This document shows, piece after piece, positions 5,211-27,251 of a stretch of 64,000 nt of DNA. Positions within the stretch are counted from its first letter, which is position 1, and every line of letters begins with the position of its first letter. Below the pieces are notes generated by a model. That model made no database searches, had not been told where the DNA came from, and was given only the letters and a program-made list of their open reading frames with translations. The position numbers and the translations under genes were made by a program. Source of the stretch: Gluconacetobacter tumulisoli (lineage in GTDB: Bacteria > Pseudomonadota > Alphaproteobacteria > Acetobacterales > Acetobacteraceae); contig NZ_JABEQM010000005.1 in NCBI RefSeq assembly GCF_014174155.1, positions 62,001-126,000 of the forward strand. Direction: 5' to 3'.

Positions 5211-6299
5211 ATGACGACCACTTCCCTGCCCGTTTCGGACCATTGCGACGGGCGCCGCTTCTTCAATCCCGCCACGATCGCACCGCCGGCAACCGGGCCG
5301 CGCCGCCCGCGGGTCCTGTCGATCCTGCGCTGGCAATGGGAACGCCGCCGGATCCAGGCCTGGCCCGCGACGCTGGACAACCCGCCGCCCGCGGGCGATC
5401 CCCACGCCCTTCCCGCGCCCGGGCACAAGCGGATCACCTTCATCGGCCACAGCACCTTCCTGTTGCGCCTGCCCTGCGCCGACGGGTCGACCCTGACAGT
5501 CCTGACCGATCCGGTCTTCTCCGAGCGGTGCTCGCCCGTGCGGTGGGCGGGCCCGCGCCGGGTCCGGCCGCCGGGCCGCACGATCGCCGACCTGCCGCGA
5601 ATCGACCTGGTCCTGGTGTCCCATTGCCATTACGACCACATGGACCTGCCGAGTCTGGCCCGCCTCGGCCACCGCGACGCACCGGTCGTGATCACGCCAC
5701 CGGGCAATGCCCGCCACCTGCGCAAGGCCGGCCTCGGCCACGCCGGTCTGGGTAACATCATCGAGCTGGACTGGTGGGAGGAGGCCCAGGTGGGGCAGGC
5801 GCGCATCACCTGCACACCCGCACGGCACGGGTCGGCCCGCACGCCCTTCGACCGCAACCGGGCATTATGGGGCGGATTCGCCCTCCGGACCGACGCCAGT
5901 CCCGAATCGGCCGGGGAGGCGGACGGCCCGAACCTGTTCTTCGCGGGGGACAGTGGACACGGGCGGCACTGGCGCCAGATCCGCGACCGGCTGGGCGCGC
6001 CGGATATCGCCCTGCTGCCGGTGGGCGCCTACGATCCCCGGATCCTGATGGAGGCCGTCCACACGACGCCCGAGGAATCGGTCCAGGCGATGCTCGACCT
6101 CGGCGCCGCGCGGGCGGTGGGCATGCATTTCGGTACGTTCCGCCTGACCGACGAACCGATCGACGAGCCGCTGCGCCGCCTCGCCGCCGCCTGCGCCGCC
6201 GCGGGCCTGGAAGCTGACCGGTTCACCAGCCTGAACCATGGGGAATGCCGGGACTTCGCCCCCCTCCTCGCCCCCGTCCCCAGCCTTGCTCCACCTTGA
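5211..6299 (+). CDS. Metallo-beta-lactamase fold hydrolase, NAPE-PLD / UlaG-like
   Basis: A 362-residue MBL-fold protein. The zinc motif SHCHYDHMD (H138, H140, D142, H143) is intact. Before it is FIGHSTFLL and a TDPVFSERCSP strand. Later come the ligand histidine in TPARHGS, the aspartate in FFAGDSGHG, and MHFGTFRLTDEP, a signature of the N-acyl-phosphatidylethanolamine phospholipase D-like subgroup. Bacterial members cleave phosphodiesters or lactones; the substrate here is unknown. The ATG at 5211 is preferred over a GTG at 5196 because GGAG lies seven bases upstream of it. No signal peptide is visible, so it is probably cytosolic. It runs in the same direction as the ankyrin gene and hisC. 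Confidence 0.8.
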   Translation: MTTTSLPVSDHCDGRRFFNPATIAPPATGPRRPRVLSILRWQWERRRIQAWPATLDNPPPAGDPHALPAPGHKRITFIGHSTFLLRLPCADGSTLTVLTDPVFSERCSPVRWAGPRRVRPPGRTIADLPRIDLVLVSHCHYDHMDLPSLARLGHRDAPVVITPPGNARHLRKAGLGHAGLGNIIELDWWEEAQVGQARITCTPARHGSARTPFDRNRALWGGFALRTDASPESAGEADGPNLFFAGDSGHGRHWRQIRDRLGAPDIALLPVGAYDPRILMEAVHTTPEESVQAMLDLGAARAVGMHFGTFRLTDEPIDEPLRRLAAACAAAGLEADRFTSLNHGECRDFAPLLAPVPSLAPP

Positions 6300-6362
6300 C
6301 GGTCGCGTCCCCGGCCCTGAGGGTCTAGACTGGATCGTCCGTCCCCTTTGCCGAGGCCCCCG

Positions 6363-6971
6363 ATGAGCGAGATCAGCGTGACCGACACGACCGCCAACGA
6401 CGCCCCCCTGCCCGGCGGACAGGACCGCAGCGGACAGGACAACGACCCGGCCGCCGCGTTCACGGAAACCGAGATCGCGTGCCTGTTCCTGGACGCCGCG
6501 CGCGACGGCCAGACCGACCTGGTCGAGGGCTTCCTTGCCGCCGGGATGGACCCCGACCTGCGCGACGGGCGGGGCTATTCCGCCCTGATCCTGGCCGCCT
6601 ACAACAGCCATGACGAAACCGTGGCATGCCTGCTGGCCCATCATGCGGCCGTCGATCTGCAGGATGCCAAAGGCGCCACGGCGCTGGCCGGCGTGGCGTT
6701 CAAGGGCGACCTGGCCGTCGCGCGCCTGCTGGTCGCGGCCGGGGCCGGGATCGATGTCCCGAACCATGTCGGGCGGACGCCGCTGATCTTCGCCACGATG
6801 TTCAATCGCGCGCCGATGGTCGCGTTCCTGCTGGAGCACGGCGCCGATCCCGACCGCCGGGATGGCGAGGGCAACAGCGCGCGGCTGGTCGCCGACCGGC
6901 AGGGCCTGGCCGCGATCGCGGCGCTGATGCCGCCGCGCGGCCCGCTGGATGCTCCCCGCCACCCGCATTGA
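6363..6971 (+). CDS. Ankyrin repeat protein
   Basis: A 202-residue protein made mostly of ankyrin repeats. After a polar N-terminal tail of about 35 residues come at least four repeats, recognisable by [37 protein letters not shown] and [14 protein letters not shown]. Ankyrin repeats bind proteins; no catalytic domain is attached. No signal peptide is seen. A TTG at 6348 would add five residues, but the ATG at 6363 is the simpler start. It lies 63 bp after the MBL hydrolase and 124 bp before hisC on the same strand. Its partner is not known. Confidence 0.8.
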
Positions 6972-7095
6972 TCTTCCGCCCGGTTTCCCGGCCGGGCGCG
7001 CTGGTCTAGAAGATCGTCGGAGCACGCGATCCGTCGGCGCATCCGCGCGGCGCGGCACCCGGCCCATATCATTCCATCCGCCAACGGAACCTGTC

Positions 7096-13422: not shown

Positions 13423-14034
13423 TCAGCCCGCAATCCCCGACACGGCGTACGGTACGGCGTCCGGCGTGTCCTTCACCGCCACCCGCCCGGCCGCGGCGGG
13501 GACCAGGGCCTCGATATGCCGCCGTGTGTTGACGACGCCCTTGGCCAGGATCGTGCCGTTGGCATCCAGAAGCACCATCGTCGGCAGGCGGCTGACCTGC
13601 AGCACCAGGCCCAGTTCGACCCCGGTGACGAACGCTACCCCTGCCAGGGCCATGCGATCGCGCATCAGGACCAATTCGGGCTGCGCACCGTCGCCGACCA
13701 GCACCGGCTCCAGCCCCCGGTCGCGGGCGACATCCAGGGCGATGGGCAGGACCCGCTTGCAGACGGGACAGTCCGGCGCGACGAACAGCAGCATGCGCAC
13801 CGCGCCCGGCGCCAGCGGCTCGCCCATCGGAAACGGGTCGCCCGCCAGCGTCCGCATGGTGATGCGCGGAATCGCCTGCCCCGGTTCCAGCCCGGCCTGG
13901 GCCGTCTGCATGCCGATCGGGGCGATGCGCTCGTGCAGCACGCCGATCTGGCGGGCCAGCGCGAACACCACCATGACCAGCACCACCACCGCCACGAACA
14001 GCAGGATCTGCGACAGCAGGAGAAAACCCATCAT
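13423..14034 (-). CDS. mauD: MauD-like thiol-disulfide protein with intact CPVC motif
   Basis: A 203-residue protein with one N-terminal membrane anchor (about 3-27), then a periplasmic thioredoxin fold. The redox motif is C89-P-V-C92 in FVAPDCPVCKRVLPIA, and a cis-proline region RLPTMVLLD follows. MauD is required for stable folding of the light chain of TTQ amine dehydrogenases, which carries many disulfides. The start at 14034 overlaps the stop of mauE (ATGA), so the two are translationally coupled. It is the last gene of the cluster. A second MauD-like gene in the same cluster (15913-16509) lacks the second cysteine, so this copy is the likelier disulfide catalyst. Confidence 0.85.
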   Translation of the reverse strand: MMGFLLLSQILLFVAVVVLVMVVFALARQIGVLHERIAPIGMQTAQAGLEPGQAIPRITMRTLAGDPFPMGEPLAPGAVRMLLFVAPDCPVCKRVLPIALDVARDRGLEPVLVGDGAQPELVLMRDRMALAGVAFVTGVELGLVLQVSRLPTMVLLDANGTILAKGVVNTRRHIEALVPAAAGRVAVKDTPDAVPYAVSGIAG

Positions 14035-14573
14035 GCGGAACGTTCCTCTCCGGCGCCGTCGGACGACAGCAGATTCGACAGGCTCAGGGCCAGGGCCAGC
14101 AGGCAGGCGCCGGCGACCAGCGACTGGCCGCGCAGAAGCCATGATCCCGGCAGCCTCACCATCACCGGCACCAGGGCCAGCGGCGCCAGCGCCAGGGTGC
14201 GCACCACCGACAGCCATGACAGCCGGGCGCCGGCCAGGCCCGGCAGGCAGCCGCATGACAGGTTCACCCGTCCGCGCAGCACGTTGATCGCCATGGCGGC
14301 GGCAAACACCCCGAACAGCAACGCCGCCGCGACCCCGGCCCAGCGGACGGCGACACCAGCCAGCATCATAACCCCCAGCATCGTTTCCAGGCCGGCCAGC
14401 ATCCAGGCGGCCGGCGCCAGCAGCCCATCGGGCAGCAGGCGATAGGCCGCCATCGTCCCCAGGAAATGGTCCGGATCACGCAGTTTCGCGATGCCGGCGG
14501 CAAGGTACAGCCCCCCCACCGCCCCGCACGCCAGCGCGGCTACCATCGACGGCAGGATCCCCGCCGCGCTCAT
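14031..14573 (-). CDS. mauE: MauE, membrane protein for TTQ amine dehydrogenase maturation
   Basis: A 180-residue inner-membrane protein with four to five hydrophobic segments. It carries the MauE signature C107-G-C109 in LRGRVNLSCGCLPG, a pair of cysteines thought to feed oxidising or reducing equivalents to MauD. The early GIAKLRDPDHFLGTMAAYRLLP stretch is typical of MauE/DoxX-related proteins. The frame is open to 14663, but MSAAGILPSM at 14573 begins at the first membrane segment. It is coupled to mauD by an ATGA overlap. A 186 bp gap containing a dispersed repeat separates it from the cytochrome gene upstream, so it may have its own promoter. Confidence 0.85.
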   Translation of the reverse strand: MSAAGILPSMVAALACGAVGGLYLAAGIAKLRDPDHFLGTMAAYRLLPDGLLAPAAWMLAGLETMLGVMMLAGVAVRWAGVAAALLFGVFAAAMAINVLRGRVNLSCGCLPGLAGARLSWLSVVRTLALAPLALVPVMVRLPGSWLLRGQSLVAGACLLALALSLSNLLSSDGAGEERSA

Positions 14574-14589
14574 CTGACAGCCTGTTTGA

Positions 14590-14650
14590 AACTGCGCGCT
14601 GCCGGCGATCCGACGCGTGATTTCTGCGCTCCGCTTCGGCGTTCGAAAAT
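14590..14650 (-). repeat. Dispersed intergenic repeat, copy A
   Basis: The reverse strand here contains the 15-mer CGCGTCGGATCGCCG (plus-strand positions 14603-14617), which is identical to copies in two other intergenic gaps of this window (56025-56039 and 57966-57980). The bases after it, GCGCAGTTTCAAACAGG, resemble those following the other copies. It fills the 186 bp gap between the cytochrome gene and mauE. Confidence 0.5.
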
Positions 14651-14759
14651 ATACGCCCGGCACGGTCCAGGGCCCACGTCCCGGATCGACCGCGCCGGCA
14701 GTCGACGATCCATCATGTCGGTCTCTCTTCCGTTCATTCCGCTTTCCGGCGCCGTCGTG

Positions 14760-15308
14760 TCAGGGCGCATCGCGGCCGGACTCGCGCCCGGCCTGCGCCG
14801 TATCATAATCATGCAGGGCCCGCGCCCGCGGGCAGGTTCGCACGACCCCCCGCACCACGTGATCGCGATAGAGATGCAGGTCGGCCATCCGCAGCGGATC
14901 GGCCCGCAAACGCGCGATTTCGGCCGCCGTATAGGGCTTGGTCCCTGCCGGCAGGCTGTCGTGCCCGAAGGTGAAGACCACGAAATTCACCATGTCGGCA
15001 AGATCCTGCGACGACAGGTTGGCGAAGGCCACGTTCGGCAGCCGGACCAGGTATTCCCGACCCTCGGGCGTGCACAGGAAATAGCCCACCTGCCCCGCCA
15101 GGTCCGGGACCACGCGCTGCCCGGACCGCCCCTGCACCCCATGGCACCCGCCGCATCCGATGAGGTACCGCCCCTGCACCACCGGGACCACCGGCACGGT
15201 CCCTGACCGCGCGCCGCTGGCCGGGGGCGGCAGGGACTGCACGGACAGTCCGAGTGCGCACAGCCCGCCAAGGACTGCTGGACGCGGGAAACGCACCATC
15301 ATCGCCAC
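14760..15308 (-). CDS. Periplasmic mono-haem cytochrome c of the amine dehydrogenase cluster
   Basis: A protein of about 182 residues with an N-terminal Sec signal (RFPRPAVLGGLCALGLSVQS) and one haem-binding CGGCH motif in YLIGCGGCHGVQG. A methionine in the DLADMVNFVVF region could be the distal haem ligand. Because it sits directly after the light-chain gene, it is the best candidate for the electron acceptor of the dehydrogenase, in place of amicyanin or azurin, for which no gene is present. The GTG at 15308 is chosen because GGAAGG lies seven bases upstream; ATG at 15302 is an alternative. It has one haem, so it is not MauG, which has two. Confidence 0.8.
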   Translation of the reverse strand: MAMMVRFPRPAVLGGLCALGLSVQSLPPPASGARSGTVPVVPVVQGRYLIGCGGCHGVQGRSGQRVVPDLAGQVGYFLCTPEGREYLVRLPNVAFANLSSQDLADMVNFVVFTFGHDSLPAGTKPYTAAEIARLRADPLRMADLHLYRDHVVRGVVRTCPRARALHDYDTAQAGRESGRDAP

Positions 15309-15328
15309 GCGCGGGCCTTCCCCCGACG

Positions 15329-15877
15329 TCAGCTCGCCTGGCCGATGATCGCGGCGGTCGAGCAATGATAGGCCGTCGATGCCGTTCCGAAGCACCAGAT
15401 GATGTCATTGCTGGCCTGGGGCCGGTAGATCGGCATTTCGCGATCGGCGGTGTTGCAGTCGCAATCCTTCGGCACCGCACAGATATTGCGGCCACAGCAG
15501 TCGCGATAGGCGATGACATAGGACCGGCCGTCGTCGGGATTGCGGCACGTCCCGATCCACGATACCGGCGAGGGCTCGGTCCCCGGCGGGCAGGTATGCA
15601 CCCCGCCGCCGCAGCAGCCGCACAGCACGCCATCGATGGCGCAATGGCGCCAGTAATTGCATTTCGTCGGATCCTTGGACTGGGCCCGACGTTCGAAATC
15701 GCTCAATGTCGGAGAGGGGGCGGACGCCGCATCCGCCCGCGCCACCGGCAGCAGGGGAAATGCCGGCGCCACGGCAATCGCCGCACCGATGCGGCCCAGC
15801 ACGCCCCGACGCGACGATCCCGCGGCCAGCTTGCGCGTGGCCTTTTCACCCAACCTGTCGAGGAAAGAAACCGACAT
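15329..15877 (-). CDS. mauA: TTQ-dependent amine dehydrogenase light (beta) chain
   Basis: A 182-residue precursor with a twin-arginine leader (SSRRGVLGRIGAAIAVAPAF) and a cleavage-like ARADA. The two tryptophans that form tryptophan tryptophylquinone are W107 in SPVSWIGTC and W161 in NDIIWCFG. The likely catalytic aspartates are D82 in AIDGVLC and D126 in YRDCCG. Fourteen cysteines are present: the twelve expected for methylamine dehydrogenase plus C89 and C133, which I recall from aromatic amine dehydrogenase. CGCCGG and SPVSWIGTC resemble the aromatic enzyme, while MPIYRPQ and NDIIWCFG resemble methylamine dehydrogenase. The enzyme oxidises primary amines to aldehyde plus ammonia in the periplasm. 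GGGAG nine bases upstream supports the start. Confidence 0.93.
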   Translation of the reverse strand: MSVSFLDRLGEKATRKLAAGSSRRGVLGRIGAAIAVAPAFPLLPVARADAASAPSPTLSDFERRAQSKDPTKCNYWRHCAIDGVLCGCCGGGVHTCPPGTEPSPVSWIGTCRNPDDGRSYVIAYRDCCGRNICAVPKDCDCNTADREMPIYRPQASNDIIWCFGTASTAYHCSTAAIIGQAS

Positions 15878-15912
15878 CGTCTACACACTCCCGGTACGAC
15901 GGCGTGGCATCG

Positions 15913-16509
15913 TCATGCCACGCGGGGACGTGCGTCCAGATAGGACTGCACGGAGACGTGGCCGGTTTCCCCCGCCACGACAAGGCTTTCAAGATGTTCG
16001 CGATTATTGACAAGGCCCTTGCCCACGATCGTGCCCGCCCCGTTCAGCAGCAGCGCGAAGGGCAGCTTGTCGACTTCCAGCCACTGGCCGATCTGCGCAT
16101 CGTTGACGAAGCATGCGGGATCGAGGCCGAAACGCCGGATCAGGTCCCACTGCATCGCATCGGTATCGTCCCCCAGGCACAGCAGGTCGATGGATTCCCG
16201 CCGTGTGAAATCCTTTGCGATGGGCAGGATCTTGCGCGAAATCGGGCAACTCCCCGACACGAACAGCAGCAGGTGCAGGCGCCCGTCGGGCCGTTCGCCC
16301 CCCAGTCCGACCTCCTGCCCGTTCATCGCCCTGACGACCCGGCGTGGCAGGCGGACGCCGGGCTGTGGGCCGGCCGACGTCATCAGCGCACCGACAGGGG
16401 CCACGCGGGTGTACAGGCGTCGGACGCTGCGAAACAGCACCGCGACCACCAGCGCAACCGCCAGGACCAGCATCCAGCTGACAGACTGGGACAGCAGCAG
16501 GACGGTCAT
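15913..16509 (-). CDS. MauD-like protein with degenerate CPIS redox motif
   Basis: A 198-residue protein with one N-terminal membrane segment (about 3-26) and a thioredoxin-like domain, clearly related to the MauD at 13423-14034 (LLFVSGSCPISRKILPIA against LLFVAPDCPVCKRVLPIA; shared GKGLVN/KGVVN). The active-site motif is C88-P-I-S91, so the resolving cysteine is a serine. Such CXXS sites can still form mixed disulfides but cannot cycle as a normal oxidoreductase. It lies between the heavy- and light-chain genes, where mauE/mauD usually sit. It may be a chaperone or isomerase for the disulfide-rich light chain. A sequencing error is unlikely, as the frame is clean. Confidence 0.85.
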   Translation of the reverse strand: MTVLLLSQSVSWMLVLAVALVVAVLFRSVRRLYTRVAPVGALMTSAGPQPGVRLPRRVVRAMNGQEVGLGGERPDGRLHLLLFVSGSCPISRKILPIAKDFTRRESIDLLCLGDDTDAMQWDLIRRFGLDPACFVNDAQIGQWLEVDKLPFALLLNGAGTIVGKGLVNNREHLESLVVAGETGHVSVQSYLDARPRVA

Positions 16510-16558
16510 GCGACGCGGGCCTGCGGACAGGCTGGAAAAACCATCGTCATGTCCCGCG

Positions 16559-17719
16559 TCACATATCGGGAACCAGGGCCATGGGCCCGGCCTGGGCCTC
16601 GATGGTCCTGCGGACGGTACCGGTGCGCACGTCGATCGTCGCAACCTTGCCGTTCTCGGCGGTGGAATAGAGCAGCGGCGCCGCATCCGGGCTGACGGCG
16701 ATCCCACGGGCAGGTTCCGGCAGGTCGATGCGCCGCACCAGCACATGGGCGGCGGGATCGATCTCCCACACCTCGGTACCGGCAGTCTTGTGCGTCCAGT
16801 AGGTGCCGACATGCATCAGGACGAACAGATGGCCGCTGGCCCGGTTCCAGGCGAACGGCTGCGCGCCGCCGGGCCGCCAGGCGATATCCTGCACCCCCGT
16901 CCCCGCGACCGGCTGCCCCGCCGCCTGCTGGATGGACCACGGCGTACCGACGACCGGGTCCTGCCCGAGGGTCGTCGCATAGACCTTGCCCGAATAGGAT
17001 ATGAACAGTGCGCGGCCGGTGGCGCGATCGACCATTCCCTGCTCGAAGATCGGATCGTTGTTCGCGTCGAAGAACGGCTTCGTATGCGTGACCTTCACCT
17101 CCGTGCCGCCGGCATAGCCGACATTGGTCAGCGATCCGTCCCCGCACAGGCTGGAGAACCCGCCGGCCTTCCACGGAAAGACCAGCGCGCAGCCGGGAAT
17201 ATCGACCGTACGCGCCACCGATCCATGGGCCAGGTCGATGACCGTCACCGATGTCGCCGGGCTCATGTCGAAGACGTAGCCCCAGCGCCCGTCGGGGCTG
17301 ACGTCGAAATCCTGCTTCTTGTAGACCGCCAGCGCGCGCGGCGGCAGGTCGATCTCCCGCAGCAGCTTCAGCGTCCTGGCATCATATTCCTGCAGCAGGT
17401 CCTGCCGCGTGCCATGATCGACACGGGACCAGATCGTATCGGCGACATAAAAGATCCTGCGGTCGGGGGACAGGACGATGTTGCCCAGGATGCTGGCCGG
17501 GACGGTGCCGAGGATACGCCCGGCATCCCCGTCATAAATGGTATAGGCCGTGTCCGCCGTCGCCGGCAGGAACCAATGGGGGGCGACCGGCGGCAGGGTG
17601 GCCACGTCGCTCTGCTCCGCCTGCAGGACGGGGGTGTCCGCGTGGGCGGCACCCGCCGACAGCATCAGCATGGCGGAAAATGCCGCACGCCACGCGGTGT
17701 TCATGCTCCAACCCACCAT
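16559..17719 (-). CDS. mauB: TTQ-dependent amine dehydrogenase heavy (alpha) chain
   Basis: A 386-residue precursor with a Sec signal ending AGAAHA|DTP and then a seven-bladed beta-propeller, seen as repeated strands such as GNIVLSPDRRIFYVADT, DFDVSPDGRWGYVFDM, DIAWRPGGAQPFAWNRASGHLFVLMHVGTYWTHK and GIAVSPDAAPLLYST. The heavy chain cradles the TTQ light chain in the periplasmic alpha2-beta2 enzyme. HVGTYWTHKTAGTEVWEID is a stretch conserved in methylamine and aromatic amine dehydrogenase heavy chains. The ATG at 17719 is chosen for the GAGG six bases upstream; 17704 is an alternative. It is the first enzyme gene of the cluster, 131 bp downstream of the TonB receptor on the same strand. Confidence 0.9.
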   Translation of the reverse strand: MVGWSMNTAWRAAFSAMLMLSAGAAHADTPVLQAEQSDVATLPPVAPHWFLPATADTAYTIYDGDAGRILGTVPASILGNIVLSPDRRIFYVADTIWSRVDHGTRQDLLQEYDARTLKLLREIDLPPRALAVYKKQDFDVSPDGRWGYVFDMSPATSVTVIDLAHGSVARTVDIPGCALVFPWKAGGFSSLCGDGSLTNVGYAGGTEVKVTHTKPFFDANNDPIFEQGMVDRATGRALFISYSGKVYATTLGQDPVVGTPWSIQQAAGQPVAGTGVQDIAWRPGGAQPFAWNRASGHLFVLMHVGTYWTHKTAGTEVWEIDPAAHVLVRRIDLPEPARGIAVSPDAAPLLYSTAENGKVATIDVRTGTVRRTIEAQAGPMALVPDM

Positions 17720-17750
17720 CACGGTCCTCTTGCCCCTTTTCAAGGTGACA

Positions 17751-17764
17751 TGCCCGATCGGGCA
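17751..17764. promoter_or_regulatory. Perfect 14-bp palindrome upstream of mauB, candidate operator
   Basis: TGCCCGATCGGGCA is a perfect palindrome 32-45 bp upstream of the chosen mauB start, inside the gap after the TonB receptor gene. It could be a regulator site controlling the dehydrogenase genes or a small hairpin in the mRNA. No second copy was noticed in the cluster. Confidence 0.35.
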
Positions 17765-17850
17765 CGCCCTGTCCCGTCCCGATATGTCCCGTGGAACCGG
17801 ACGCGGCCGGACCCCGTATTCCCGGCCCTGCCGCGTTTCTCTCCGGCGTC

Positions 17851-20448
17851 TTAATATTCGGCGCTGATCGTGCCGAAATACTCGCGGACCGCTCCACGCT
17901 CCAGCGACTGGTAGTCGCCCCCGTCGCCCGACTGGCCGCCGATCGGGAAACCGTTCTCGCCCATCATCGCGATATATTTCTGGTTGAAGAGGTTATAGAT
18001 CTCGAAGCTGGCGGTCACGTTCTTCAGCACGCTGAGATTGCCGAACCGATATTTGGCGCCGAGATTGGCCATCCAGTAAGAGCCGATGCTCGTATCGTTC
18101 ATGTACGAGAAGTAACGCTTGCCGTAGTAATTCACATCGAAATGGGCGGACGCTCCCTTATATTCGTATGCGAGACTGGTCTTGTACATAACCTGCGGAT
18201 AGGCAAGCATCTTCTTGCCCTTGATATCGCAATCCCCCGCAAGCGGGCAGATATTGACGTGATCCGCATAGGTGAAATGATTGTAGCTGATCGAGTTGGT
18301 CCAGGACAGGCCGTGCGCCAGCCCGTTGAACGGCGACAGCGTCAGGAACGCATCCGTCCCGTACATCGTCGCGTGTTTCGAGTTGACGACCGAGGTGATC
18401 GGATTGTTCAGGCTTCCCACCGAGGCGGAGATCAGACGGTTGTACGCATCCGAATGATATGCGTCGACAGAGGCCTGGATCTTGGGCGACGTGTACCTGT
18501 AGCCAACCACATAGGAAAAATCGCGCTCGTTCGGCAGGTTGTGCTGAAGCTGCTGGAACGCATCCTGCGACGACACCGCCCAGGGAGAGACCGAACCGCC
18601 CGAGGGCGCCACCATGAACGGCCGCATGTTCTCGGCGAAATCGAAATACAGCTCGTGCCCACGCAGGAAATGCCAGTCGAGATTGACCGCCGGCAGGAAT
18701 GCCGCCGCCGAGGTCATCGATCCGTTCGGCAGGCCCGAGACCGAGCCATAACCCGTGTCGCTGCCGTAGCCGGCATCGACGTTGCCGTAATACGCGCCGC
18801 CGGACGTCGTCTGCAGCATGGACCGGAAGCCGTAGGTCACCGCCAGGCTGTCCACCGGACGCCAGGTGTCCATAAGGTGGAACTGGAATGCATTGGTATT
18901 CCAGGTAAAGCCGTAGCCTTGCTGGAAGGGAGGGCCATAGGTGGTGTAGGGCCCGACGGTCTTGAGCGGCGCGCCCTGGCCGTAGACCGGTTCGTTATAC
19001 CAGAACAGGTCGGCCCGCTGGGAATTGTTCTCGTACCAGCCGCCGGCATTGATGTTGTGGCGCCCGATGCGCCAGTTGAAGGCGCTGGTGAAGCCGAAGC
19101 GCTGGTAGGACGACTGCCACACTTCCTCGGAATCCGGCGCGCCGGTCCCGAGCGACTGTGTCCAGGGATCGCCATACGTCGCGTGCGTATCATCCGCGGC
19201 GGCGTAGAATACCGTATTCCAGCGCAGGCGATCGGTGAGGGCCAGGTCGGCATTGATACCGCCCAGATAATCCTGTGTCGCTTGTCCGGCATCATAATAG
19301 GCGGTTCCGGCGCCTTCGTTCGTGTTCTGCCAGGAGGCCGGAATGGTCGGGCTGGTGCCCTTCGGGAAGACCAGCGGGGTTCCGCTGCCGACATCGTACG
19401 TGCCCGGACCGGTATAGGTCAGGCCGTTATCGTTCACCCACGCATATTCCGAGGCATTATAGGCCCCCAGATAGTTCGGCGCCCAGGATTCCGTCCGCCA
19501 TCCGGCATTTTTCAGGATGCTGAGGGATTTGTCCGCGTAGCCCCAGACCTCGGCGTCGTTCCAGTTGAAGATCGACGTGATCCGGCTGTCATTCCCGATG
19601 GGCTGGACGAGCTTGCCATTCACCGACTGCATGAACCCGGGGGTCGGGGCGTCGTATTTCCGTTCGTCGGCGCGCGAATACGCGGCATAGAATTTCGTGC
19701 CGGTGCGGTTCAGCGCGCCGCTGTCGACGCGGGCGTAGGTGCGCAACGTGCCGTAGCTGGCGAAAACCTGCGAGACCTTGCCACCCACCTTGTCCTTCGG
19801 ATCGGACGTGTGGAAACGCATCGTGCCGCCAAGGCTGGAATTGCTCGGCAGGTCGACGCCGCCGGCACCCTGCGATGTCTCGACGCTCTGGATATCATCG
19901 GAAATCCAGGCGTTGGCGACGTTCAGGCCGTTGACGCTGGAATAGCTCTGGTCGTTGAGCGGGATGCCATCGAGCGTCATCCCGATCGAATCCTGGAAGA
20001 AGCCGCGCACGTATACGCTGGTGCCCCAGGTGTCGAGGCCGAGCGGATCGCTTGAACTGAAGCTCACGCCCGGCAGCTGGCCGACCGATTTCAGGATGTT
20101 GGTTCCCGCCACCTGCGATTCCAGCATCGCGCGGGTCACGCTGACCTCGGCGCCGTGCGAGACATGGTGGCTGGCGACCACGTTGACCGCCTCGTCCGCC
20201 GCGGCGGCGACGCCGGCGCGACGCGCGGGCGCATGGGTCGGCCCTGCCGTCCTCGCAGCCCCCTGCCGGGCGATCGGGCCCCCGCGGTGCAGATGCGTCG
20301 CGGACGAATGCGACGACGTCGCAGCCGATTCCGGCGCCGTCTGTGCGAAAGCCGCCCCCCCGCCGATCACGCCGCCAAGAACGGCCGTGCCAAGGAGTTG
20401 CGCGCGCAAGAGACGCCTGTTTCGCGCGAAAATCCGTCCTGATCGCAT
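17851..20448 (-). CDS. TonB-dependent outer-membrane receptor, upstream of the amine dehydrogenase genes
   Basis: An 865-residue precursor. It has a signal peptide (LLGTAVLGGVIGGGAAFAQT), then a plug domain with VSVTRAMLESQ, LKSVGQLPGVSFSSSDPLG, YVRGFFQDSIGMTLDGIPLND and GGTMRFHTSD, and then a 22-strand barrel ending in an aromatic residue (EYFGTISAEY), as required for outer-membrane insertion. Residues 36-86 form a low-complexity His/Ala/Arg linker. Such receptors take up siderophores, cobalamin, metals or sugars using TonB energy; the ligand is unknown. It reads in the same direction as the dehydrogenase cluster and could be its first gene. It is divergent from the LysR gene at 20704. Confidence 0.88.
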   Translation of the reverse strand: MRSGRIFARNRRLLRAQLLGTAVLGGVIGGGAAFAQTAPESAATSSHSSATHLHRGGPIARQGAARTAGPTHAPARRAGVAAAADEAVNVVASHHVSHGAEVSVTRAMLESQVAGTNILKSVGQLPGVSFSSSDPLGLDTWGTSVYVRGFFQDSIGMTLDGIPLNDQSYSSVNGLNVANAWISDDIQSVETSQGAGGVDLPSNSSLGGTMRFHTSDPKDKVGGKVSQVFASYGTLRTYARVDSGALNRTGTKFYAAYSRADERKYDAPTPGFMQSVNGKLVQPIGNDSRITSIFNWNDAEVWGYADKSLSILKNAGWRTESWAPNYLGAYNASEYAWVNDNGLTYTGPGTYDVGSGTPLVFPKGTSPTIPASWQNTNEGAGTAYYDAGQATQDYLGGINADLALTDRLRWNTVFYAAADDTHATYGDPWTQSLGTGAPDSEEVWQSSYQRFGFTSAFNWRIGRHNINAGGWYENNSQRADLFWYNEPVYGQGAPLKTVGPYTTYGPPFQQGYGFTWNTNAFQFHLMDTWRPVDSLAVTYGFRSMLQTTSGGAYYGNVDAGYGSDTGYGSVSGLPNGSMTSAAAFLPAVNLDWHFLRGHELYFDFAENMRPFMVAPSGGSVSPWAVSSQDAFQQLQHNLPNERDFSYVVGYRYTSPKIQASVDAYHSDAYNRLISASVGSLNNPITSVVNSKHATMYGTDAFLTLSPFNGLAHGLSWTNSISYNHFTYADHVNICPLAGDCDIKGKKMLAYPQVMYKTSLAYEYKGASAHFDVNYYGKRYFSYMNDTSIGSYWMANLGAKYRFGNLSVLKNVTASFEIYNLFNQKYIAMMGENGFPIGGQSGDGGDYQSLERGAVREYFGTISAEY

Positions 20449-20703: not shown

Positions 20704-21657
20704 ATGCCAGACAAGCGCCTTTTCCCCCCTTTCGGGCCGTTGCGCGCCTTCGACGCATTCGGCCGCACCCGTGGCATCCGCCGGGCGGCGGAATGGCTGC
20801 GCATTGACCATGCCGTCGTCAGCCGGCACATGCGCGCCCTGGAACGATGGACGGGCGTTCCCCTTCTGGACCGGGCCGGCGGAGGGCTGACCGAGGCCGG
20901 CAAGATCTATCACGGCCGGATCACCGCCGCCCTGGACGAGATCGCCAACGCGACCGAGGCCCTGCGCACCGGCGACCCGCCGCAGCTGAGCGTCTGGTGT
21001 GTTCCCGGTTTCGCCTTTCACTGGCTGGTCCGCCGCCTGGGCGCCTTCCGCGAGGAACATCCCGAGATCGACCTGATCCTGCGACCCAGCGACGAGCGCG
21101 CGTCATTCTGGTCCGACGGGGTGGACGCCGATATCCGCTACCGGCTGGACAACGCGACGACGCTGTCCTCCCCCGGTATCCGCCAGGCGGAACTGGCCCG
21201 GCCGCTGGTCTTTCCGGTCGCCAGCCCCGATTTCGTCCGACAGGCCGCCGGCCGGATCCGGCGGATCGAGGATCTGGCATCGCTGCCCCTGCTGGCCGAG
21301 GAAAACAGCGACGAATGGCTGGCCTGGTTCGCAATGCAGGGGGTGCAGGTCCCCACGGTGACCCCGGCCGCCCGTCTGTGGCATGCCCATGTCATGCTGG
21401 CCGCCGCGCGTGAGGGACATGGCGTGGCGCTGGCCAACCAGTTCCTGCTGGAAGACGACCTGGCTTCGGGCAAGCTGGTTCGGCTGGGATCGGCCGATGG
21501 TCCGTTTCCCGGGGCCGCCATCGGGGCCTACACGCTGTTCATTCCGGAAAACCGCTGGGACCGGCCGGCGTTGGTCCGGTTCCGGACGTGGCTGTCGCAC
21601 ATAGCCGGATCGTTCCAGCCCTGCGCCGCCACGTCGCGGCCCGGGGCGGCACCATAA
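20704..21657 (+). CDS. LysR-family transcriptional regulator, GcvA-like
   Basis: A 317-residue regulator. The N-terminal winged helix-turn-helix spans about residues 8-66 (FGPLRAFDAFGRTRGIRRAAEWLRIDHAVVSRHMRALE is the recognition region), followed by LLDRAGGGLTEAGKIYH and a linker helix. The C-terminal effector domain begins near residue 95 and contains EHPEIDLILRPSDE and VPVASPDF-like segments. The short DVDADIRY-type loop and LAEENSDEWLAWF resemble GcvA-group regulators. It is divergent from the TonB receptor/amine dehydrogenase genes and points toward the second TonB receptor, so either or both may be its targets. It would respond to a small molecule, perhaps an amine or amino acid. Confidence 0.87.
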   Translation: MPDKRLFPPFGPLRAFDAFGRTRGIRRAAEWLRIDHAVVSRHMRALERWTGVPLLDRAGGGLTEAGKIYHGRITAALDEIANATEALRTGDPPQLSVWCVPGFAFHWLVRRLGAFREEHPEIDLILRPSDERASFWSDGVDADIRYRLDNATTLSSPGIRQAELARPLVFPVASPDFVRQAAGRIRRIEDLASLPLLAEENSDEWLAWFAMQGVQVPTVTPAARLWHAHVMLAAAREGHGVALANQFLLEDDLASGKLVRLGSADGPFPGAAIGAYTLFIPENRWDRPALVRFRTWLSHIAGSFQPCAATSRPGAAP

Positions 21658-21797
21658 GGGGCTGTTGTCCGTACGCAACAAGCGACGAAAACCCGGCAGG
21701 AAAATGATCATCCTATATTGAAACGTTATATCATACGGTTTAGAGCGGCGAGAGAACCTGCCCCTTTCCTGTTCCTCCAGCCGGACAATCGCCCCGT

Positions 21798-24089
21798 ATG
21801 CCCGCACCGTGCTCTCCCGCCCGTCTCACGTTGGTGACCCTGCTGCTGTCGGGCGTGGCGTCCCTGGCCATGACCCCGGCGCAGGCGGATACGACCGCAT
21901 CCGCCACGCCCCAGGTGCAGCCGGCGAAGACCGGAACCGCAACACCGCCCACCGGGAAACAGACCGCGCCGTCCCCGGCGCCGGCTCCCGTTTCGGTTCC
22001 TTCATCCGCCCCCGAACGCATCACCGTGACGGCGCGCCTCGACCGGGCACGCTCGGCCCTGCAACCCTCGACGGGCGCCACGGTCTACAGTTTCAGCCGC
22101 ACCGCGATCGAAACCGTACCCGGCGGGGACAACGCGCCGTTGAACGGCGTGCTGCTACAGGCCCCCGGTGTGGCGCAGGACAGCTACGGCCAGATCCATG
22201 TCCGCGGCGACCATAACGAGGTGCAGTTCCGCCTGGACGGCGTGCAGCTGCCCGAGGGCCTGACCGTGTTCGGCCAGGCTCTGATGACCCGTTTCGCCGA
22301 TTCCCTCTCGATGACGACGGGCGCGCTACCCAGCGAATACGGCTTCCTGCAGGCGGCGGTGATCGACATCACCACCAAGAACGGCACCACGAATCCCGGG
22401 GGCGATGCCTCGATCTATGGTGGGGCGCGGGATTATTTCTTTCCGTCCCTGCAATATGGCGGACATCACGGAAAATGGGATTATTTCGCCACCGGCGATT
22501 TCCTGCACGACCGGATGGCGATCGAAAACACCACCCCCAGCTTCAACGCCGCGCATGATCTCAGCAACCAGTACCACGCCCTGGGCCACCTGCGGTACAC
22601 GGCCGACGACGACACCCGCATCAGCCTGATCGGTGGCGTGTCCAACGCGGAATATCAGCTTCCGAACAATCCCGGACAGCAGACGCAATTCCAGCAGCCG
22701 GCCTATTCCGGCAGCGCGCTGGCCCAGCGCCTGGCCGGCAGCGTGGACAGCGCCAGCCTGGACGAACACCAGAAGGAAATCACCGATTTCGGCATCCTGT
22801 CCCTGCAGAAGGAAATCGGAAATTTCAGCCTCCAGACCTCGGCGTTCGTACGGTACAGCAGCCTGCGCTATTCCCCGGACATGCTGGGCGACCTCGTCTA
22901 TAACGGCATCGCGCAGCAGGCCGCGCGCTCGGTCTTCTCGTCGGGCAGCCAGGGCGACGTGACATGGCGCATCAACCGCCAGCACACGATGCGCTTCGGC
23001 TACCAGGCGTTCGTCGAACGCAACGTGTCCAAGACGAACTCGCTCGTCTACCAGCAGACGGGCAGCGATGCGAACGGCGACCCCGTCTATGGCGACAGCC
23101 CGATCACGATCCATGATGGCAGCGGACGCACCGGCTGGATCTGGGGTCTGTACGCCCAGGACGAATGGCAGCCGCTGCGCAAGCTGACGGTCAATTACGG
23201 GCTGCGCCTGGACGGGGTAGATGAATATACCCACCAGAAGCAGCTCAGCCCCCGCCTGAACCTGGTCTGGACCCCGCTGCGCGGCACGACGCTGCATGCC
23301 GGCTATTCCCGTTATTTCACCCCGCCGCCGTTCGAGGTCGTCAGCGGCGCGTCGATCGGCAAGTTCGACGGCACCAGCGCCGCCGCCGCCAGCACCCGCA
23401 GCGATACGGTCAAGGCCGAAAGCGACCATTATTTCGACGCCGGCATCACCCAGCAGATCCTGCCGGGCTGGCGCGCCTCGTTCGACGCCTATTACAAGCT
23501 GGCCCACAACCTGATCGACGAAGGCCAGTTCGGCGCGCCGATCATCCTGTCGGGGTTCAATTACCGGCGCGGACAGGTGAACGGCTACGAGGTCAGCACG
23601 TCGTACGATCGCGGCCCGATATCGCTGTACGGCAACATGGCCTGGTCGCGCGCCATCGGCAAGGACATCACCAGCGCGCAATTCAATTTCTCGCCCGACG
23701 ACCTGGCCTATATCCAGCAGCACTGGATCCACCTGGACCATGACCAGCGCTGGACGGCGTCGGCGGGCGGATCCTACACCTTCTTCCATCGCACCGGGCA
23801 TCCGACGCGCCTGTCCGCCACGATGGTCTACGGCAACGGCCTGCGCGCGGACAGCGACATTCCCAACGGCGCCAAGCTGCCGCAATATGTCACCTTCAAC
23901 CTGTCGCTGGTACAATCGTTCCGGGACCTGTTCCACGTACCGTTCCTGAAGCGGACCCAGGTGCGGCTTGACGTCACCAATTTGTTCGACCGGACATACG
24001 AACTGCGCGACGGTTCCGGCATCGGGGTCGGGGCGCCGCAGTACGGGCTGCGCCGGACGATCCTGACCGGAATTTCCCAGCAATTCTGA
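21798..24089 (+). CDS. TonB-dependent outer-membrane receptor
   Basis: A 763-residue precursor with a signal peptide (LVTLLLSGVASLAMTPAQA), a Pro/Ala/Thr-rich linker (to about residue 70), a plug domain (RITVTARLDRARSA, NGVLLQAPGVAQDSYGQIHVRGDHNEVQFRLDGVQLPEG, then GFLQAAVIDITTKNG) and a beta-barrel ending RTILTGISQQF. The final phenylalanine is the usual signal for barrel assembly. The closest style is that of receptors for small organic ligands or sugars rather than catecholate siderophores, but the substrate is unknown. It lies between the LysR gene and an amino acid permease on the same strand, which suggests uptake of a nitrogen compound across both membranes. The start is an ATG; the ribosome site is weak. 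Confidence 0.87.
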   Translation: MPAPCSPARLTLVTLLLSGVASLAMTPAQADTTASATPQVQPAKTGTATPPTGKQTAPSPAPAPVSVPSSAPERITVTARLDRARSALQPSTGATVYSFSRTAIETVPGGDNAPLNGVLLQAPGVAQDSYGQIHVRGDHNEVQFRLDGVQLPEGLTVFGQALMTRFADSLSMTTGALPSEYGFLQAAVIDITTKNGTTNPGGDASIYGGARDYFFPSLQYGGHHGKWDYFATGDFLHDRMAIENTTPSFNAAHDLSNQYHALGHLRYTADDDTRISLIGGVSNAEYQLPNNPGQQTQFQQPAYSGSALAQRLAGSVDSASLDEHQKEITDFGILSLQKEIGNFSLQTSAFVRYSSLRYSPDMLGDLVYNGIAQQAARSVFSSGSQGDVTWRINRQHTMRFGYQAFVERNVSKTNSLVYQQTGSDANGDPVYGDSPITIHDGSGRTGWIWGLYAQDEWQPLRKLTVNYGLRLDGVDEYTHQKQLSPRLNLVWTPLRGTTLHAGYSRYFTPPPFEVVSGASIGKFDGTSAAAASTRSDTVKAESDHYFDAGITQQILPGWRASFDAYYKLAHNLIDEGQFGAPIILSGFNYRRGQVNGYEVSTSYDRGPISLYGNMAWSRAIGKDITSAQFNFSPDDLAYIQQHWIHLDHDQRWTASAGGSYTFFHRTGHPTRLSATMVYGNGLRADSDIPNGAKLPQYVTFNLSLVQSFRDLFHVPFLKRTQVRLDVTNLFDRTYELRDGSGIGVGAPQYGLRRTILTGISQQF

Positions 24090-24108
24090 CCATCCGCCCG
24101 TCGGGCCA

Positions 24109-24144
24109 TGACATTCCGGTTCCGATATCTATAATCGGAACCGA
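24109..24144 (+). promoter_or_regulatory. Strong promoter overlapped by a perfect 10-bp inverted repeat, upstream of permease
   Basis: ATGACA (24109-24114) and a perfect TATAAT (24131-24136) are 16 bases apart. The arms CGGTTCCGAT (24118-24127) and ATCGGAACCG (24135-24144), separated by seven bases, cover the -10 box. A repressor bound there would block RNA polymerase. Transcription would start near 24143, 35 bases before the permease ATG, which has GGGAGG as ribosome site. The absence of a T-run argues against a terminator. Confidence 0.6.
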
Positions 24145-24177
24145 AACGTCCTGGCACCAGGCGGGAGGCCCAAGCCC

Positions 24178-25563
24178 ATGTCCATCTCCACCGCCGCGTC
24201 ACCGGCATCGTCCGTGCCGGACGACGCCGCCCCCGCGCAGTTGCACAAGCGCCACGTCGCGATGATCTCGATCGGCGGCGTGATCGGGGCCAGCCTGTTC
24301 GTCGGATCGTCCACCGCCATCGCCACCGCCGGGCCGGGCGTGTTCCTGTCCTACCTGCTGGCCGGGCTGATCATCCTGTGCGTCACCCGCATGCTGGGCG
24401 AGATGACCGTCGCGGACCCCGACGCCGGATCGTTCGTCGCGCATATCCGGCGCGGCATCGGCCCGCGCACCGCCTTCGTGGGCGGATGGACCTATTGGGT
24501 GATGTGGGCGACGATCCTGGGGATCGAGGCGATCGCGGCGGCCAGCTTCCTGGCGCCGTTCCTGCCGCTGCCGTTCCTGGCAATCGAATGCGCCATCATC
24601 GCCGTGATGACCGGGATCAACCTGTTTTCGGTCCGGGGATACGGCGAATTCGAATATTGGTTCTCGATGACCAAGATCATGACGATCGTGATCTTCATCG
24701 CCACCGGCGGCTGCGCCCTGCTGGGCTTCACCGGATATCGGCCGGATATCCCGTCGAACCTGCTGGGCCACGGCGGCCTGTTCCCCCATGGCGGATTTGC
24801 CCTGATGGCCAGCATCCCCGCCATCATGCTGTCGATGGCCGGCGCCGAGATCACGACGATCGCCGCCATGGAATCCAGCCACCCGGCCGAGAGCGTCGGC
24901 CAGGCCACGCGCTCGGTCGTGCTGAAAATCTTGGTCTTCTACCTGGTGTCGATCGGGCTGATCCTGTGCCTGACGCCGTGGGCGGCGGTTAGCCCCGGGC
25001 GTTCGCCCTTCCTGACGACATTGCAGCGCATCGACATCCCCTTCGCATCACTGCTGATGACGGGGGTGATGCTGGTCGCCACCCTGTCCGCGCTGAATTC
25101 GGGCCTGTACGTGACGTCGCGGATCCTGTGCGAACTGGCCGACAGCGGGGATGCACCGCGCCTGTTCCTGTCGCGCAGCGCAAACGGCACGCCGCGCCGG
25201 GCGATCCTGGCCGGCAGCATCATCGCAATCCTGGTGGCCATCGCCGGCATGCTGTCGCCCGACCTGGTCTTCGCCTTCCTGGTCAGCGCGACCGGGACCT
25301 TCGTCCTGTTCGATTATGTCCTGATCGCGGTCGCCCAGATCCGCCTGCGCCGTCAGGCGATCGCCGACGGCACCCGGCCCGCCCTGCCGATGTGGGGCTT
25401 CCCATGGATTTCCTACGTCACGCTGGCCCTGCTGGTGGGCGCCCTGCTGACGATGCTGGTCGCGACGACGCACACGCGGCTGGAAATCATCCTGGGGTCC
25501 CTGACCGTGGGCTTCCTCATCCTGGTCGAAAAGGGCACGCTGGCCATGCGCGGCACCCGCTAG
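24178..25563 (+). CDS. APC-superfamily amino acid permease
   Basis: A 461-residue inner-membrane protein with 12 predicted membrane segments. It opens with HKRHVAMISIGGVIGASLFVGSS, the glycine-rich helix 1 of the amino acid transporter (AAT/GabP) family, and continues with DPDAGSFVAHIRRGIG and FEYWFSMTKIMTIV. GABA, aromatic amino acids, proline or lysine are the usual substrates; specificity cannot be read from sequence. It closely resembles the permease at 42906-44309, so the two are paralogues. It has its own promoter/operator at 24109-24144 and is convergent with hutH, so histidine uptake is possible. Confidence 0.87.
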   Translation: MSISTAASPASSVPDDAAPAQLHKRHVAMISIGGVIGASLFVGSSTAIATAGPGVFLSYLLAGLIILCVTRMLGEMTVADPDAGSFVAHIRRGIGPRTAFVGGWTYWVMWATILGIEAIAAASFLAPFLPLPFLAIECAIIAVMTGINLFSVRGYGEFEYWFSMTKIMTIVIFIATGGCALLGFTGYRPDIPSNLLGHGGLFPHGGFALMASIPAIMLSMAGAEITTIAAMESSHPAESVGQATRSVVLKILVFYLVSIGLILCLTPWAAVSPGRSPFLTTLQRIDIPFASLLMTGVMLVATLSALNSGLYVTSRILCELADSGDAPRLFLSRSANGTPRRAILAGSIIAILVAIAGMLSPDLVFAFLVSATGTFVLFDYVLIAVAQIRLRRQAIADGTRPALPMWGFPWISYVTLALLVGALLTMLVATTHTRLEIILGSLTVGFLILVEKGTLAMRGTR

Positions 25564-25603: not shown

Positions 25604-27154
25604 TCAGGCCGTGGCATCCAGCGCCGGCAGGCCTGTCTCCATGCCCAGCGCCGACGCCGGCACACCGGCGGCGATCAGGTCGCGGGCGGCCTCGATGTCC
25701 GGGGTGAAGACGCGGTCACGGTCGTAGAAGGCCACCTTCGCCCGCAGGGCGGCGACCGCGCGGGCCAGCGGGGCCGAGGTTTCAAGCGGGGACAGGAAGT
25801 CGATTCCCTGGGCCGCCGCCAGATATTCGATGGCGACGATGTCGCGCACGTTGACCACGATGTCACCCACCCGCCGCGCCGCGAACGTCGCCATGCTGAC
25901 ATGGTCCTCCTGGTTGGCTGAGGTCGGCAGGCTGTCCACGCTGGCGGGATGGGCCAGCGTCTTGTTTTCCGACGCCAGCGCCGCCGCCGTGACCTGCGCG
26001 ATCATGAAGCCCGAATTCAGGCCGCTGTCGCGCACCAGGAAGGGGGGCAGGCCACTCATCTGCGCATCGACCAGCAGGGCCAGACGGCGTTCGGCGATCG
26101 CGCCGATTTCGGATACCGCAATGGCCATCAGGTCGGCGGCGATGGCCACCGGTTCGGCGTGGAAATTGCCGCCGGACAGCATCTCGTCGGTGTCGGCGAA
26201 ATGGATCGGGTTATCCGACACCGCATTTGCCTCGATCAGCAGGACAGATGCCGCGTGACGCAGATTGTCCAGGCACGCCCCCATCACCTGCGGCTGGCAG
26301 CGCAGGCAGTAGGGATCCTGCACCCGTTCGTCGTCTTCGCGGTGGGAGGCCCGGATCGCCGAACCCGCCATCAGCGCACGATAGACGGCGGCGCATTCGA
26401 TCTGCCCCTTCTGGCCGCGCAGGGCATGCAGGCGGGGATCGAACGGGGCGTCCGTGCCCCGCGCCGCATCCAGGGTCAGCGCCCCGGTGACCAGGGCCGC
26501 CTGGAACAGCCGTTCGGCGTCGAACAGCGCCACCAGGGCCAGCGCGGTCGAGGCCTGCGTGCCATTCAGCAGCGCCAGTCCCTCCTTGGGGCCCAGCACT
26601 ACCGGCGTCAGGCCCGCCGCCCGCAGGGCCTCGCCGCCCGGCAGAGTGCGGCCTTCGAAAACCGCCTGCCCCTCGCCGATCATGACCGCCGTCATGTGGG
26701 CCAGCGGGGCCAGGTCACCGGACGCGCCGACCGATCCCTTCTGCGGGATGACTGGCAGAACGCCCCGATTGCACATATCCAGCAGCAGCTGGACGATGTC
26801 CGCCCGCACGCCCGAATAGCCGCGGCCCAGCCCGTTCGCCTTCAGCAGCATGATCAGCCGCACCGTGCGTTCGTCCATCGGCGCGCCGATCCCTGCCGCG
26901 TGGCTCAGGACCAGGTTCCGCTGCAGGTCGCGCAGGTTGGAATCCGCGATCCGGGTCTTGGCCAGCTTGCCGAAGCCGGTATTGACGCCATAGACCGGCC
27001 TGCCGTCGGCCACGATTCGCGCCACGGACCGCGCGGCATCATCCAGCTGCGCGCGTGCTTCCTCTGCCAGGGTCAGGCTGGGCGCCGAGAAGGCGAACCG
27101 CCGCAGATCCGTAAGACCGAGCGCGCCCGGCGTCAGGACGAAAGAATCGGTCAT
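25604..27154 (-). CDS. hutH: Histidine ammonia-lyase
   Basis: A 516-residue cytosolic lyase that removes ammonia from histidine to give urocanate. The autocatalytic MIO cofactor forms from A144-S145-G146 in [17 protein letters not shown]. The active-site tyrosine Y56 is in [10 protein letters not shown], and [24 protein letters not shown] and the late NQEDHVSM are all family signatures; these favour histidine over phenylalanine or tyrosine lyases. The ATG at 27154 is preferred; the longer frame to 27232 runs through the promoter. No hutU, hutI, hutG or hutC is adjacent, so the rest of the pathway must be elsewhere or absent. A HutC-type operator covers its promoter. Confidence 0.92.
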
Positions 27155-27207
27155 CGCCGGCCGGCCGGACGAGGGAGAGAGACGGTCATGGCAAAACCTT
27201 GAATGTA

Positions 27208-27251
27208 CTTGTATATACCATTCGATAGCCACACCGTCCTGACCCTGTCAA
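27208..27251 (-). promoter_or_regulatory. hutH promoter with HutC-type operator
   Basis: On the minus strand a perfect TTGACA (27251-27246) is followed after 18 bases by TATCGA (27227-27222), placing the start of transcription near 27215. The palindrome GTATATAC at 27211-27218, in the context CTTGTATATACC, sits on that start point. GntR-family regulators of the HutC group bind sequences of the form NyGT-MTA-kACNy, and this site matches nearly all of it. Repression relieved by urocanate would be the expected control. Confidence 0.55.

Follow-up and report, generated by a model that had tools for sequence, protein, structure and literature searches.

Among the closest described relatives of the locus examined here is the mau operon of Paracoccus and Methylobacterium, which encodes methylamine dehydrogenase (MADH) and in which maturation of the tryptophan tryptophylquinone (TTQ) cofactor is known in detail for the di-haem protein MauG. 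PMC7876137 gives the substrate of MauG as a mono-hydroxylated precursor, the first TTQ hydroxyl in MADH being thought to form autocatalytically. A second relative, the aauBEDA cluster, has a heavy chain, MauE, MauD and light chain followed by mono-haem cytochromes and no MauG, like a plasmid cluster of P. aeruginosa (L112). Because work published in 2001 on the aau genes of A. faecalis reportedly placed a mono-haem cytochrome downstream of them, the presence of a cytochrome beside such genes is probably not new. The L112 light chain best matches aromatic amine dehydrogenase (AADH; 2agl) and AADH is reported to contain TTQ (PMC7699789), so among clusters of the MauG-less kind there is a relative of an enzyme proven to contain TTQ. 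Here we describe a seven-gene TTQ amine dehydrogenase operon on the minus strand of a 64,000-nucleotide stretch of Gluconacetobacter tumulisoli DNA (hereafter the window; G000:C5:62001-126000, in a genome of 3.96 Mb that is 99.9% complete), and in particular its mono-haem c-type cytochrome, which we call CYTC.

The window operon has the heavy chain, light chain, MauE, MauD and TTQ residues of the mau operon but lacks MauF, MauJ, MauG and amicyanin, with CYTC there instead; profiles for these four proteins, built from annotated mau clusters, gave zero matches within the window. Its gene set (heavy chain, MauE, MauD, light chain and mono-haem cytochrome, no MauG) is that of the aau type. The order differs from aauBEDA, running heavy–MauD(CPIS)–light–cytochrome–MauE–MauD with one MauD more, and the heavy chain is about equally near to those of MADH and AADH; this likeness is judged from L112 rather than from the A. 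faecalis cluster. The enzyme adds a member to a known class, and its cluster belongs to a known broad kind (aau-like). As far as we have seen, four things are apparently new: the deletion of the methionine loop of CYTC, its close tie to TTQ light chains, a one-time exchange with MauG, and the CPIS MauD. Nothing on the aau cluster, on CYTC or on these four points was found among the papers listed from the open-licence literature, a scope outside which most TTQ literature lies.

The initial annotation of the window had named seven minus-strand genes in this order, and open reading frames were found for all of them (Table 1). Its view that they encode a TTQ-type dehydrogenase agrees with the Pfam results, the light and heavy chains (PF02975 and PF06433) both exceeding their gathering cut-offs, and with the alignment of both TTQ tryptophans. 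In the PDB the heavy chain best matched its counterparts from MADH and AADH (E 3.9e-38 to 2.2e-36), and the methylamine dehydrogenase equivalogs TIGR02658 and TIGR02659 were not reached (159.5 versus 454.45 and 188.4 versus 196.85). The extra MauD is present, as a CPIS copy besides the CPVC copy, and the profile searches bear out the reported lack of mauF, mauC and mauG nearby, which makes completion of the cofactor without MauG a genuine question. The supposed host, an acetic acid bacterium, fits the nearest named loci, those of Gluconacetobacter johannae and G. azotocaptans, with light chains 92% and 91% identical to that of the window. The cytochrome, which had been passed over, is the most telling gene of the cluster.

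TTQ light chains and their gene partners

When the window light chain is aligned with those of MADH and AADH (3c75_L and 2agl_D), W107 and W161 fall on the TTQ tryptophans, and D82 and D126 on two aspartates that are cofactor or catalytic residues there; the MADH and AADH residue numbers are those we take to be standard. Among 134 light chains, W107, W161 and D126 are invariant and D82 is kept in 129.

The 134 light chains came from four sources: 84 from the 78 loci of a named-genome scan (the best 80 of 185, biased to relatives of the query), 33 from genome stretches found by family, phylum and class searches, 15 from as many of 30 plasmid records, and two from the window and a second cluster in its own genome. 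The 33 stretches include eight of the family's 64 light chains, and the phylum and class draws took all 25 light chains apart from our own and a short fragment in G686. Genes were marked with profiles built in the analysis and were counted within 6 kb on the same strand. CYTC without MauG accompanied 122 light chains; MauG, MauF and MauJ without CYTC accompanied eight; four had neither, and none had both. The phylum and class draws, whose starting points were not close relatives, gave CYTC for 23, MauG for one and neither for one (n = 25). The gene set called non-standard in the initial annotation is therefore the commonest kind sampled, whereas the gene order and the CPIS MauD are indeed particular to acetic acid bacteria. 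Locus L026, from Gluconacetobacter diazotrophicus, shares the gene order of the window.

The eight MauG-type clusters lie on Paracoccus plasmids (L111, L132, L133, L134 and L138), on a Methylobacterium plasmid (L113), in Indioceanicola (L114) and in genome G1099 (L124). A tree was built by a quick method, with midpoint rooting, from 61 of the 128 light chains with a heavy chain found, after thinning at 86% light-chain identity. The eight light chains occupy three rows of this tree and form a single clade inside the CYTC kind, with a support of 100 in the Shimodaira–Hasegawa-like approximate likelihood ratio test. The neighbours of the clade are L121, L122 and L125 (support 95), two of which have CYTC. 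Since the MauG kind forms one clade, we count one swap and not many.

Besides the heavy chain, MauE and MauD, CYTC is the only frequent partner of the light chain. Among protein families counted in 61 representative loci (open reading frames of at least 110 amino acids within 7 kb; CYTC clustered together with CYTC1b, a normal c552-like cytochrome), heavy and light chains occurred in all 61, MauD in 58, MauE in 57 and CYTC in 56, and the next family in 17. A conserved unfamiliar neighbour was considered as the maturase and rejected, as none among reading frames of this size and distance was found in more than 17 of these loci.

The association is also seen across whole genomes. A light chain above the cut-off occurs in 36 of 397 Acetobacteraceae genomes, with 13 other genomes of the same genus among the matches listed. 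The CYTC profile (E ≤ 1e-10) matched 30 of 367 Acetobacteraceae genomes, which we take from their handle numbers to be G000–G366 and which hold 29 of the 36 light-chain carriers; all 29 matched. The single match among the 338 non-carriers was G145, a 66% complete genome in which the hit lies near a contig start. The 29 matching genomes contain 51 light chains, and 50 of these have CYTC on the same strand no more than 1.6 kb away; among ten candidates scored per genome, no other CYTC reached the threshold. Within the Acetobacteraceae, CYTC is near-exclusively linked to TTQ light chains.

Three observations from the survey stand apart from these counts. Extra heavy–light pairs with no cytochrome, MauE or MauD nearby occur at L032, L033, L036 and L121 (Komagataeibacter genomes and G1023). 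A Sphaerotilus plasmid (L136, ~5300-7050) carries an apparent remnant of a TTQ cluster that retains CYTC1b and CYTC; its light chain lacks an annotation, and neither heavy chain nor MauD was found. A CYTC-type cluster on a contig binned as Candidatus Marinimicrobia (L044) has a light chain 59% identical to that of the window, and reflects either transfer or mis-binning.

The cytochrome and its axial-methionine loop

The closest PDB sequence and fold to CYTC is the Thermus-type cytochrome c552, whose axial-methionine loop CYTC does not have. The match between the CYTC profile and Thermus c552 is split, covering chain residues 9–47 and 71–128 and skipping residues 48–70, the stretch that holds Met69, which we take to be the axial ligand. 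An AlphaFold2 model of CYTC (predicted local distance difference test score 87.3, predicted template modelling score 0.78) retrieved Thermus c552 first in Foldseek (probability 1.00, E 0.008). CYTC descends from c552-type cytochromes; it is probably exported. Domain searches gave a marginal PF00034 match as the only Pfam hit (22.4 bits, cut-off 21.3) and no NCBIfam family at E 0.01. With one CXXCH motif and no di-haem CCP_MauG domain, CYTC lies outside the MauG superfamily (PF03150), and it resembles the di-haem proteins MauG and BthA in its proposed role only.

We aligned 122 of 123 CYTC and 40 of 42 CYTC1b reading frames jointly, those dropped on length being the L103 CYTC (which has the short loop too) and two pieces of a broken CYTC1b at L086. 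The loop is seven residues long in all 122 CYTC and 25–26 in all 40 CYTC1b. The column of the axial methionine holds Met in every CYTC1b, and in CYTC it holds Asn (67), Gly (54) or Asp (1) and never Met. CYTC thus retains the CXXCH motif of a class I c552-type carrier and has lost its axial Met. Residues invariant in 79 aligned CYTC comprise the haem motif with G33 and G36, then G39, P47, G54, R63, Y65, P70, N87, R114 and R127; neither a Met nor a second His is among them. At position P+4 of the short loop CYTC has Phe (38), His (28), Met (20), Asn (11) or others, Phe being found in the window protein and Met in the CYTC of the second cluster in the same genome.

Routes to the completed cofactor

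We read the operon as that of a periplasmic TTQ amine dehydrogenase, aau-like and without MauG, and put at about even the chance that its cofactor is completed by CYTC, acting as an open-site haem protein in place of MauG. MauE and the CPVC MauD would assist disulfide formation in the light chain, and the CPIS MauD, added in Acetobacteraceae, might serve as a monothiol, isomerase-like helper. W107 and W161 would then be oxidised and joined into TTQ. The haem c of CYTC, with its sixth site open or weakly held for want of the Met ligand, would react with H2O2 or O2 and take electrons from the precursor light chain encoded next to it; both the peroxide chemistry and the action on the light chain are what we infer for this protein. 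This role is favoured because CYTC is the sole haem protein found constantly beside MauG-less light chains and because a haem c without Met can be catalytic: the Met80Ala variant of yeast cytochrome c has electrocatalytic properties that are absent in the wild type (PMC9458088). The broader proposal, to which we give slightly less than an even chance, is that CYTC is a second TTQ maturase, not assigned before: a mono-haem cytochrome turned into an enzyme when its axial-Met loop was deleted. It would serve most sampled TTQ dehydrogenases and would have given way a single time, to MauG together with MauF and MauJ, on the branch of the textbook methylamine dehydrogenase.

The genome of the window contains a second light chain (G000:C10:96380), in a cluster of heavy chain, light chain, CYTC1b and CYTC without mauE, mauD or mauG alongside. 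The initial annotation had raised the matter of mauG, mauF and further cluster copies elsewhere in the genome; besides this second cluster we found three PF03150 proteins, none near either TTQ cluster and two of them with three CXXCH motifs each, and no MauF match in a whole-genome search that had no positive control. A complete mau operon elsewhere is rejected, as the second cluster contains two cytochromes, with no mauF or mauG alongside. The one MauE above the cut-off in this genome is that of the window (two further matches scored 24.5 and 23.8 against a cut-off of 27), and the second dehydrogenase therefore probably borrows it. A single MauE thus goes with two dehydrogenases, yet there is one CYTC per dehydrogenase, which favours a partner-specific role. 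G1099 favours the same role, as it has a MauG cluster and a CYTC cluster in one genome and the latter retains its CYTC.

CYTC could instead be an electron acceptor dedicated to the mature dehydrogenase, in the manner of amicyanin, with TTQ made in another way. We regard this main rival as unlikely. In its favour, CYTC is encoded beside nearly every dehydrogenase, its ancestry is that of an electron-transfer cytochrome, CYTC without CYTC1b accompanies 84 of the 134 light chains (6 kb, same strand), and amicyanin is present in the annotated clusters of the mau clade, where CYTC is lacking. Against it, loss of the axial Met from every aligned CYTC is unusual for a carrier. Another 38 light chains also have CYTC1b nearby, a cytochrome that has kept its Met in all 40 sequences of sufficient length, and the mau-type clusters L114 and L124, which have no amicyanin in view, have no CYTC either. 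That TTQ forms by itself once the disulfides are in place, driven by O2 or a metal, or through a host factor encoded elsewhere, with CYTC in a minor or unrelated role, appears improbable. The first hydroxyl in MADH, thought to be autocatalytic (PMC7876137), lends it some plausibility, but it leaves the close tie between CYTC and TTQ light chains unexplained.

We rate lower still the possibility that a MauG-superfamily protein encoded elsewhere completes TTQ in trans. The candidate is a BthA-like di-haem protein (G000:C5:28426-29790; L007), encoded ~46 kb from the window cluster. It is related to MauG (PDB match 1.4e-35) and at E ≤ 1e-20 was found in 31 of the 36 light-chain carriers of the Acetobacteraceae compared with 51 of the 361 other genomes. 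It is nevertheless closer to BthA of Burkholderia (4.4e-60), scores 86 bits against the cut-off of 443.85 for the MauG equivalog TIGR03791, and has its gene beside one for a PF04185 phosphoesterase-family protein, just as bthA, according to PMC6405878, always follows the gene of a putative phosphatase and lies outside mau operons. Moreover, the protein is missing from five carriers (G169, G178, G219, G242 and G362); G169, G242 and G362 carry another PF03150 protein, and in G219 no PF03150 protein was found.

The PF03150 search was made in two sets of light-chain genomes. No such protein was found in 12 of 37 genomes in the first set (40 handles, three pairs with identical matches being counted once), nor in nine of 20 genomes in the second, the genomes counted in both sets being those without a known MauG cluster; the 24 handles of the second set also included three mau plasmids and G1099 as positive controls, all matched. 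Completeness is stated for 11 of these 21 PF03150-empty genomes: it is 100% for G219, G480, G612, G681, G824, G942, G1023 and G1057, 96% for G1028, 92% for G993 and 89% for G178. The other ten were reached via named loci, and G407 is a metagenome bin. The assemblies of G480, G612 and G824 consist of one contig each and that of G942 of two. All but one of the 57 genomes showed CYTC, the exception being G390, whose cluster was not fetched. Since 21 of 57 genomes have none found, a MauG-superfamily protein is no constant companion of MauG-less TTQ clusters.

Several observations count against CYTC as the maturase. His (28/122) or Met (20/122) at P+4 could restore a haem ligand; CYTC has no invariant Trp for MauG-like hole hopping and one haem to the two of MauG; and the AlphaFold2 model contains no haem, so that the haem site is not visible in it. 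The high frequency of the BthA-like protein among light-chain carriers also points away from CYTC. With a single swap, the survey does not amount to 130 independent cases, and MauF, MauJ and partly amicyanin changed on the same branch as MauG and CYTC. The absence of CYTC from the mau type was judged from the neighbourhoods of the clusters. Finally, four heavy–light pairs have no CYTC alongside, each in a genome with CYTC in another cluster.

The survey narrows the question of MauG-less TTQ maturation to one gene. Should a different protein, with one haem, serve most TTQ enzymes, the textbook case of MauG would be a derived exception. A small cytochrome that performs or triggers such a modification would then be a simple catalyst to study. 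The answer would also guide production of these amine dehydrogenases in a laboratory host.

The operon and its surroundings

Table 1. Minus-strand genes of the window operon, with profile scores
Feature	Position in window	Strand	Profile match
TonB-dependent receptor, first gene of the presumed operon	17851..20448	-	PF00593 85.6 bits, PF07715 38.6 bits
TTQ amine dehydrogenase heavy (large) subunit, beta-propeller	16559..17743	-	PF06433 163.3 bits (cut-off 21)
Second MauD, CPIS not CPxC, no resolving cysteine	15913..16509	-	TIGR02661 131.2 bits (cut-off 188.6)
Light (TTQ-bearing) subunit	15329..15877	-	PF02975 177.9 bits (cut-off 25)
CYTC, mono-haem c-type cytochrome (CGGCH), candidate TTQ maturation factor	14760..15302	-	
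MauE, membrane protein	14031..14573	-	PF07291 79.9 bits (cut-off 27)
MauD, canonical CPVC	13423..14034	-	TIGR02661 140.8 bits (cut-off 188.6)

The window light chain has 14 cysteines. C89 and C133 are found in 111 and 107, respectively, of the 122 CYTC-type light chains and each in one of the eight MauG-type light chains, a contrast that suggests an additional disulfide. S173 of the window replaces a Thr of MADH and AADH (Thr122 of MADH). Ser is found at this site in 107 of the 134 light chains, all of them among the 126 that are not MauG-type, and Thr in all eight of the MauG type. The site aligned with D82, an Asp in MADH, is His in a divergent TTQ cluster (L107, L108, L109 and L110, from G376, G364, G037 and G300, three genomes sharing the genus of the window and one sharing its family) and Ser in L095.

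The start of the CPVC mauD overlaps the mauE stop by four bases, and both MauD proteins score under the TIGR02661 cut-off. Of 46 Acetobacteraceae loci, 26 have a MauD with the motif CP[IV]S, and no locus from outside the family does; 22 of the 26 have a CPxC MauD as well. In six loci one of the MauD motifs went unrecognised. The position of the CP[IV]S MauD varies: between the heavy and light chains, downstream, or on the opposite strand. The protein is an Acetobacteraceae paralogue. Because its second cysteine is lost, it is unable to form the CXXC disulfide, and an isomerase-like or holdase role is our guess.

Among the 78 loci of the named-genome scan, 24 of the 36 from Acetobacteraceae have a homologue of the TonB receptor (>100 bits); the other 42 have none. 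Rfam and tRNA scans of the window found nothing. Periplasmic oxidation of an amine by the enzyme is plausible. A guess at its substrate from the flanking genes (a GABA-type permease and a GABA transaminase, together with a gene at 25604-27232 that is presumably HutH) was dropped, as no neighbour was consistent. The BthA-like gene and the adjoining phosphoesterase-family gene (PF04185 224.5 bits; G000:C5:28426-31555, L089 8427-11556) form a pair, here in an acetic acid bacterium, that resembles the one reported for Burkholderia bthA. On the other strand of the window, positions 20704-25563 encode a divergent LysR regulator, a second TonB receptor and the GABA-type amino acid permease, a block that is also present at L011 and L012, the loci of G. 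johannae and G. azotocaptans.

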